This document shows positions 10,903-10,953 of a stretch of DNA of 43,947 bases, one piece after another. The translations under genes and the position numbers were made by a program. The notes under the pieces are model-generated. The model was not told the origin of the DNA. It made no database searches and saw only the letters and a list, made by a program, of their open reading frames with translations. The DNA comes from Hyphomicrobiaceae bacterium (GTDB taxonomy: Bacteria > Pseudomonadota > Alphaproteobacteria > Rhizobiales > Xanthobacteraceae), in assembly GCA_021324465.1 (NCBI GenBank), contig JAJPJB010000101.1:1-43947 (forward strand). The letters run 5' to 3'. The stretch's first letter is position 1, and every line of letters begins with the position of its first letter.

Positions 10903-10925
10903 TTCGGGTGAGCGCTTCACCCGAA
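10903..10925 (+). promoter_or_regulatory. leader hairpin, 9-bp perfect stem
   Basis: TTCGGGTGA (10903-10911), loop GCGCT, TCACCCGAA (10917-10925). It lies between the nusG-like gene and pseB, ending 1 nt before the ops-like element. No U-tract follows, so it is not a standard intrinsic terminator. It may stabilise a paused elongation complex at the ops-like site or act as an attenuator (inference). Confidence 0.75.
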
Positions 10926-10926
10926 G

Positions 10927-10938
10927 TGCGGTAGCGTG
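10927..10938 (+). promoter_or_regulatory. ops-like (RfaH-recruitment) element
   Basis: TGCGGTAGCGTG matches the E. coli ops element GGCGGTAGCGTG at 11 of 12 positions; only the first base differs. In enterobacteria this sequence pauses RNA polymerase and loads RfaH onto the non-template strand. Here it sits on the coding strand about 90 nt downstream of a nusG/rfaH-like gene and 15 nt before the probable pseB start, exactly where such a site should act. Whether alphaproteobacterial paralogues use the same sequence is not shown here. Confidence 0.7.
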
Positions 10939-10953
10939 GGGCGCTGTTCGGAA

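Follow-up and report, generated by a model that had tools for sequence, protein, structure and literature searches.

A hairpin at 10903-10925 and the ops-like 12-mer TGCGGTAGCGTG at 10927-10938, both on the forward strand of the window (the whole stretch of 43,947 nucleotides analysed), are probably (roughly 84%) an ops/JUMPstart-type pause-and-load signal for the product of the neighbouring gene, an RfaH-like paralog of NusG, in the leader before a pseudaminic-acid operon. The basis of this reading is the presence of the element, its conservation, the covariation of its hairpin, its co-occurrence with the paralog and its gene context; pausing, reading of a DNA hairpin and antitermination would be expected by analogy with E. 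coli RfaH. An RfaH-type loading site had been proposed in an earlier, sequence-only reading of the same DNA, and the proposal is supported, at the level of sequence comparison, by conservation in cis, by co-occurrence with the paralog and by the genes that surround copies elsewhere.

The site in the window and its neighbours

The 12-mer shares 11 of its 12 bases with E. coli ops (GGCGGTAGCGTG), the mismatch being position 1, and is separated by 90 nt from the stop codon of the ORF at 10321-10836; its core GCGGTAGC, the equivalent of ops G2-C9, occupies 10928-10935 on the same strand. The hairpin, seen in the sequence, in its fold and in covariation among relatives, has arms at 10903-10912 and 10916-10925 around a 3-nt loop (10913-10915), with nine Watson-Crick pairs and one G-U pair, and a single nucleotide (G10926) separates it from the 12-mer. 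No T-run follows the hairpin in the sequence. The sequence-only reading had described both the 11-of-12 match on the correct strand and a hairpin without a U-tract ending 1 nt before it, and comparison of the sequences confirms the two observations. A 43-nt stretch at the site is more stably folded than its shuffled versions (z-score -2.86).

A covariance model, R1, was trained on 30 elements located behind paralogs. In the genome from which the window comes, its sole strong match is the site itself (10895-10940, 54.2 bits); the next best place scores 14.8 bits, and the R1 scan gave no convincing further copy in this genome. As a string, GCGGTAGCGTG is not rare there (four places, and eight for the pattern read backwards), so that the case for the site rests on position and conservation. 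In the window, the 12-mer with up to two mismatches has nine matches against 6.8 expected.

Upstream of the site are two forward-strand genes. A winged-helix, MarR_EPS-like regulator at 9677-10324, the start codon of which is uncertain, matches Pfam HTH_24 with 32.8 bits and NCBIfam TIGR04176 (MarR_EPS) with 60 bits, under the cutoff of 88. The region behind its winged helix looks Rossmann-like by eye (GWTRVALAGVSDLAEIATICALEQGITIVAVVDAAA) and is perhaps a sensor; a Pfam search of this region matched no family. The paralog itself (10321-10836, 171 residues) matches Pfam NusG with 72.2 bits, and among the NCBIfam models RfaH (TIGR01955) is the best at 115.6 bits, below its equivalog cutoff of 144.5, followed by UpxY (64.4), NusG (59.5) and LoaP (40.2). 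RfaH is also its best sequence match in the PDB. The protein has two matches in its own genome, of which the second is taken to be the housekeeping NusG.

Downstream, pseB (10954-11973, forward strand) is identified by TIGR03589 with 518.5 bits (cutoff 407.75). Its ORF is open from a GTG at 10936, which overlaps the element, and has an alternative GTG start at 10954; the PseB match begins at codon 23 counted from 10936, and the earlier inference that translation does not start at 10936 is reasonable, if tentative. A run of forward-strand ORFs follows from 11844 to 43912, with pseC, pseG and pseI over their cutoffs, aminotransferases and others, and its layout suggests one transcript. The family models thus agree with the earlier placement of the site after an RfaH/NusG-family gene and before a glycan operon. 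In one member of the run (14068-15549), a PseG domain at residues 6-280 is followed by an extra C-terminal part that looks acetyltransferase-like by eye, a possible PseG-PseH fusion. In another (18006-20060), residues 254-679 match glutamate-1-semialdehyde aminomutases below cutoff, and the N-terminal part looks cytidylyltransferase-like by eye.

Conservation behind paralog genes and across genomes

The window protein served as query against 296 genomes of its family, and 89 homologue loci were read; these are the matches of at least 56 bits minus a partial contig-edge match (G176:C359), the weaker matches being mostly at the level taken for housekeeping NusG. The core GCGGTAGC occurs within 300 nt downstream of the stop codon in 54 of the 89 loci, where about 0.8 would be expected from base composition, and it is the commonest 8-mer of this 300-nt region. 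Control regions of the same loci contain it once upstream, never within the gene and once at 300-600 nt downstream; the reversed word is found 3 times downstream, 3 upstream, 7 in the gene and 4 at 300-600 nt. The core starts 48-104 nt past the stop in 50 of the 54 loci (median 69). Ranked by score, the top 52 loci include 46 with the core and the lower 37 include 8, which leaves 35 family homologues with no core in cis. In a public genome collection, partly overlapping with the family loci, the core lies within 300 nt downstream in 66 of 80 loci, including those of Bradyrhizobium, Nitrobacter winogradskyi, Afipia and Methylocystis. A contig edge cuts off one of the 14 loci without it. Recurrence of motif plus hairpin beside orthologous nusG-like genes, which the earlier reading had named as its own check, is therefore found: the core recurs in both sets, and the stem covaries in aligned elements. 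In the window's own genus, the homologues at L052, L053, L058 and L060 share about 55% identity with the window protein and have no element in cis; in their genomes the element is on another contig, near methyltransferase and asparagine synthase genes (L135, L137, L134, L136).

Co-occurrence was counted with R1, which mostly gives one match per genome, and with thresholds of E<=1e-15 for the paralog and E<=1e-4 for the element in the family, and E<1e-25 for the paralog in the class; in the large runs, each genome contributed about 18-20 scored candidates. Among the 296 family genomes, 61 have both, 20 the paralog only, 2 the element only and 213 neither. Because R1 was trained on elements behind paralogs, the count was repeated minus the 29 training genomes, giving 32, 20, 2 and 213 (Fisher p 2e-25). 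Class-wide, R1 elements are found in 37 of 337 genomes, 35 of them with an RfaH-like paralog; 47 genomes have the paralog only, 2 the element only and 253 neither (p 2e-22). Related genomes are not independent, so both p-values serve only to rank the effect. The genomes with an element but no paralog match at threshold (G288 and G121 in the family, G322 and G486, the latter with contamination 10, in the class) were kept in the counts; in G322 no glycan gene is seen by eye near the element.

Pattern searches of the 337 class-wide genomes point the same way. The exact pattern with TCACCC occurs at 43 places, 40 of which are in paralog genomes, and covers 39 of the 82 paralog genomes. A looser pattern, TCACCNNNNNKGCGGTAGC, occurs at 70 places against 26 when read backwards; 14 of its 27 non-TCACCC forms are in paralog genomes, and these forms are therefore mostly background. 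The 47 class paralog genomes with no R1 match were sampled by reading 20 of them directly: four have an element in cis that R1 missed (three with GCGGCAGC) and 16 have none nearby, although four of the 16 (G308, G392, G480 and G573) carry the exact TCACCC form elsewhere in the genome. Among 328 genomes from across the phylum, 12 have the element; three of these are outside the class, and translated sequence places an RfaH-like gene directly upstream in two of the three. Two out-of-class loci of one family (L273 and L280, in G706 and G713 of f163) have an RfaH-like gene and a TCACC-type element with GGCGGTAGCGTG; the system is thus not confined to Alphaproteobacteria. With the placement of the core downstream of homologues and the exact-pattern counts tied to paralog genomes, a chance match can be rejected by a wide margin, and the ops-like observation is genuine.

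Copies that are not directly behind a paralog gene, here called off-site, offer a view of the genes that the element precedes, although several of them are about 2-9 kb from the paralog gene (for example L139, L140, L143, L146 and L151). The set consists of 20 of the 21 off-site R1 matches in family genomes (E<=1.7e-4; G121 left out). Polysaccharide-type genes lie downstream of 19 of the 20, the gene type being assigned by judgement and the count taking in asparagine synthases, an ATPgrasp_TupA protein and one Band_7 gene with an epimerase-like ORF behind it. The other neighbours include an ABC-2 transporter, a methyltransferase, GDP-mannose dehydratase, NDP-sugar epimerases, Polysacc_synt_2 (PseB-type), DegT aminotransferases, glycosyltransferases, GFO/IDH and a nucleotidyltransferase; in L133, L141, L145 and L150 the named gene begins about 0.7-1 kb downstream of the element. 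The exception, L147, is in G288, a genome with no paralog match, and precedes a Cys/Met-metabolism enzyme. Many of the 29 class-wide loci have similar neighbours by eye, and several are unclear. In L150 (501-570 of the locus, G191:C13), the element is followed directly by a second copy, GGCGGTAGCGTTTCGCAAG, giving tandem ops-like cores upstream of a glycosyltransferase gene.

What is conserved, and what might read it

Two blocks are invariant across the 30 aligned elements, CACC in the 3' arm of the hairpin and GCGGTAGC. In the E. coli paused complex, this same block, ops G2-C9, is the non-template DNA hairpin, RfaH reads its G5-T6 loop and the pause is at U11 (PMC11001881). A second alignment, A4, has 49 elements outside the training set: 15 of the 20 off-site copies (L135, L146, L147, L151 and L152 being absent), 28 of the 29 class loci L233-L261 (L257 being absent) and six phylum loci. 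In A4 the core is intact in 48 of 49, the other having GCGGCAGC, with T11 in 46, G12 in 39, position 10 variable, and position 1 T in 40, G in 8 and unread in one, figures that are somewhat favourable because the exceptions L147 and L257 are absent. The window site thus has the ops hairpin bases GCGGTAGC with the pause end T11/G12, and most of the 49 elements do as well. From the ops literature, we infer that a bare consensus pause would not need the ops loop bases; that they are conserved favours recognition by a factor. In L256, L286, L296 and L297 the core is GCGGCAGC, with a change at T6, a base read by E. coli RfaH, and the TCACC arm kept; the last three of these stand behind a paralog gene.

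The hairpin covaries. In the 30 sequences 89.1% of cells are paired, with 17 double-change cells against a shuffle mean of 5.1; in the 49 other sequences, a set chosen and aligned by R1 itself and hence biased, the values are 87.4% and 31 against 11.7. Slid controls reach at most 51% pairing. Counting pairs with change on both sides, neither set is clearly above shuffles (the value is reached by 73 of 500 shuffles for the 30 sequences and 56 of 500 for the 49). Dinucleotide shuffles of the 5' side give p<=0.05 in 37 of the 54 loci, some of the remaining 17 having stems longer than this test permitted.

For the protein, the alignment with E. coli RfaH has no gaps in the N-terminal domain, and RfaH numbering is obtained by subtracting 5 from the window residue number. 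Residues were counted in the 54 cis-linked proteins; L048 was excluded, from the residue counts only, for its in-frame stop. The side chains that contact ops are K10, H20, R23 and R73, and a common recognition mode has been suggested for all RfaH (PMC5995543); in the account of PMC7593976, K10 predates the emergence of RfaH and R73 is a later gain. In the cis-linked proteins, R23 has its equivalent in 48 of 54 and H20 is H in 32 and N in 21, whereas lysine at K10 and arginine at R73 are found in none (Q or H in 48 and R or L in 6 at the former, V, F, I, L, Y or M at the latter). As to whether the paralog keeps the ops-contacting residues, a question posed by the sequence-only reading, R23 is mostly kept, H20 partly, and K10 and R73 not at all. 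Glutamate at E48, which in E. coli RfaH holds the alpha-helical KOW domain in its autoinhibited state, is likewise absent from all 54 (A, R, S, K, T or V instead); the equivalents of Q24, T72, G74 and F56 are present in 54 of 54 and that of R138 in 53. Other positions are nearly fixed: W at RfaH position 66 is invariant, with R at 67 in 52 of 54, H at 39 in 53 and R at 41 in 50. Since W66 and H39 are also common in homologues with no cis element (33 and 27 of 34), they characterise the subfamily, not the element. The loop that is I-F-G in NusG, where it binds Rho, and L-I-N in E. coli RfaH (PMC7593976) is mostly L-L-G in the cis-linked proteins. With the ops residues partly changed and the element unchanged, the reading surface would be partly different. 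Two AlphaFold2 predictions of the C-terminal domain disagree: the one from 25 sequences has low-confidence helices, with RfaH:ops (5OND) as top Foldseek match, and the one from 67 sequences has a beta-barrel with pLDDT near 80, for which the best matches include NusG models and recruited RfaH.

The covarying hairpin, with CACC in its 3' arm as invariant as the core in the 30 elements, and a paralog with neither K10 nor R73 are also what one would expect if the element were read as RNA, the paralog binding the nascent hairpin through the conserved UCACCC arm and not the non-template DNA. LoaP reads a leader RNA hairpin in this way. We regard this main rival as rather improbable, since the conserved block coincides exactly with the DNA hairpin of ops, mostly with the pause dinucleotide TG one base on, and the family match to RfaH (115.6 bits) is far above that to LoaP; the element could nevertheless act in part at the RNA level. 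Less probable again is that the winged-helix regulator, whose gene lies upstream in the window and, by translated sequence, in several class-wide loci, uses the inverted repeat GGGTGA..TCACCC as a double-stranded operator, with the ops core as a separate pause. The loop length of clear stems varies (3 in L005, 5 in L018, 9 in L006), the 3' arm is conserved more than the 5' arm, the arms pair partly through G-U, the ops core is on one strand at a nearly fixed distance after the stem, and there are copies away from the paralog gene; all of this makes an operator unlikely. That the hairpin, directly after the RfaH-like gene, is a mere terminator of that gene and the ops match incidental was rejected as very unlikely, given the missing T-run, the rank of the core among 8-mers downstream of homologues and the copies near glycan genes away from the paralog.

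For the pause-and-load signal, we propose the following course. RNA polymerase fresh from copying the paralog gene would pause at T10937, and GCGGTAGC in the exposed non-template strand would fold into a small hairpin. The paralog, coming from the same transcript or, at off-site copies, by diffusion, would dock on the G5-T6 loop and the polymerase clamp, excluding NusG, and would stay on through the long glycan operon, with less premature termination and aided translation. The RNA hairpin would form just upstream of the RNA-DNA hybrid and would probably stabilise the pause or limit backtracking; hindrance of backtracking by the 10903-10925 hairpin, which the earlier reading had raised, is only plausible. 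The frequent place of the element right behind the paralog stop suggests that the polymerase is loaded in cis straight after copying the gene; the off-site copies imply that the paralog acts in trans as well. Against the pause-and-load reading are the absence of K10 and R73, the 35 of 89 family loci with no core in cis, the 47 of 82 class paralog genomes with no R1 match, the GCGGCAGC cores and an unsupportive score for the Rfam JUMPstart model (RF01707).

Comparison with known systems

RfaH-like genes in Alphaproteobacteria are already known, making up 18% of rfaH genes (PMC7593976). For an ops or JUMPstart element in this class, no description was found in the open-licence literature, subscription papers and supplements being outside the scope of the search, and JUMPstart is given as gamma-proteobacterial (Weinberg 2010, PMC2864571). 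Recurrence across Alphaproteobacteria, mostly before sugar-coat clusters, suggests a loading system wider than the well-studied one. It bears on how cis-encoded RfaH-like proteins find their operons, a question raised in the literature, where a detailed recruitment mode is described as known for E. coli RfaH only (PMC7593976). From the element, target operons can also be predicted for many alphaproteobacterial genomes, and natural variants of it (T6 to C, for example) are available for comparison with their own proteins.

A possible, and still tentative, interpretation is that hairpin-ops loading is older than, or independent of, the K10/R73 contacts and the E48 lock, with alphaproteobacterial paralogs using other residues (W66, R67, H39, R41) and little or no fold-switch. 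The element 48-104 nt past the stop would then mean receipt of fresh protein in cis, intermediate between RfaH that loads by proximity and RfaH that acts fully in trans. A conserved element beside paralogs that lack K10, R73 and E48 makes the order of RfaH evolution directly testable.

Several published systems resemble this one in part. The RfaH cluster CL4 (Wang et al. 2020, PMC7593976), which is associated with an HTH regulator, has an RfaH-like gene beside HTH and envelope genes, and the window is likened to it by gene context; the available part of that paper names no loading element for the cluster. Monomorphic RfaH homologues (PMC13015549) are likewise encoded beside their target operons; E48 is not kept here, and one of our two models gives a beta-barrel C-terminal domain. 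They are described as ops-independent, as E. coli RfaH becomes with E48A (PMC13015549), whereas here an ops-like element is conserved.

With JUMPstart (RF01707), the window shares a stem-loop directly before ops in the leader of a polysaccharide operon, and, as in the RF01707 consensus, the 3' arm of the stem ends 1 nt before the 12-mer. The stem itself is different, with a conserved TCACCC arm. RF01707 scores 18.7 bits at the site, its best place in the genome but close to others (18.6, 18.5 and 18.2) and below its gathering score of 35, and a search of 14 relatives at E<=1 gave no RF01707 match. Filing the pair under the Rfam JUMPstart family or the RfaH equivalog was therefore rejected (18.7 against 35, and 115.6 against 144.5). 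With both cutoffs missed and the equivalents of K10, R73 and E48 absent, we regard it as a variant distinct from the known ops systems.

The closest likeness is to E. coli RfaH and ops (5OND, 8PHK; PMC5995543, PMC11001881): the core GCGGTAGC is identical, T11-G12 is mostly kept, and an RfaH-like NusG paralog with equivalents of R23, Q24, T72, G74 and F56 goes with polysaccharide operons. In contrast to the E. coli system, position 1 is mostly T and position 10 free, K10, R73 and E48 have no equivalents, and W66, R67, H39 and R41 are nearly invariant. The element is often right behind the paralog gene (54 of 89 loci), with a MarR_EPS-like neighbour in the window, and there is mostly one match per genome, compared with 16 ops sites in MG1655 (PMC7819879).
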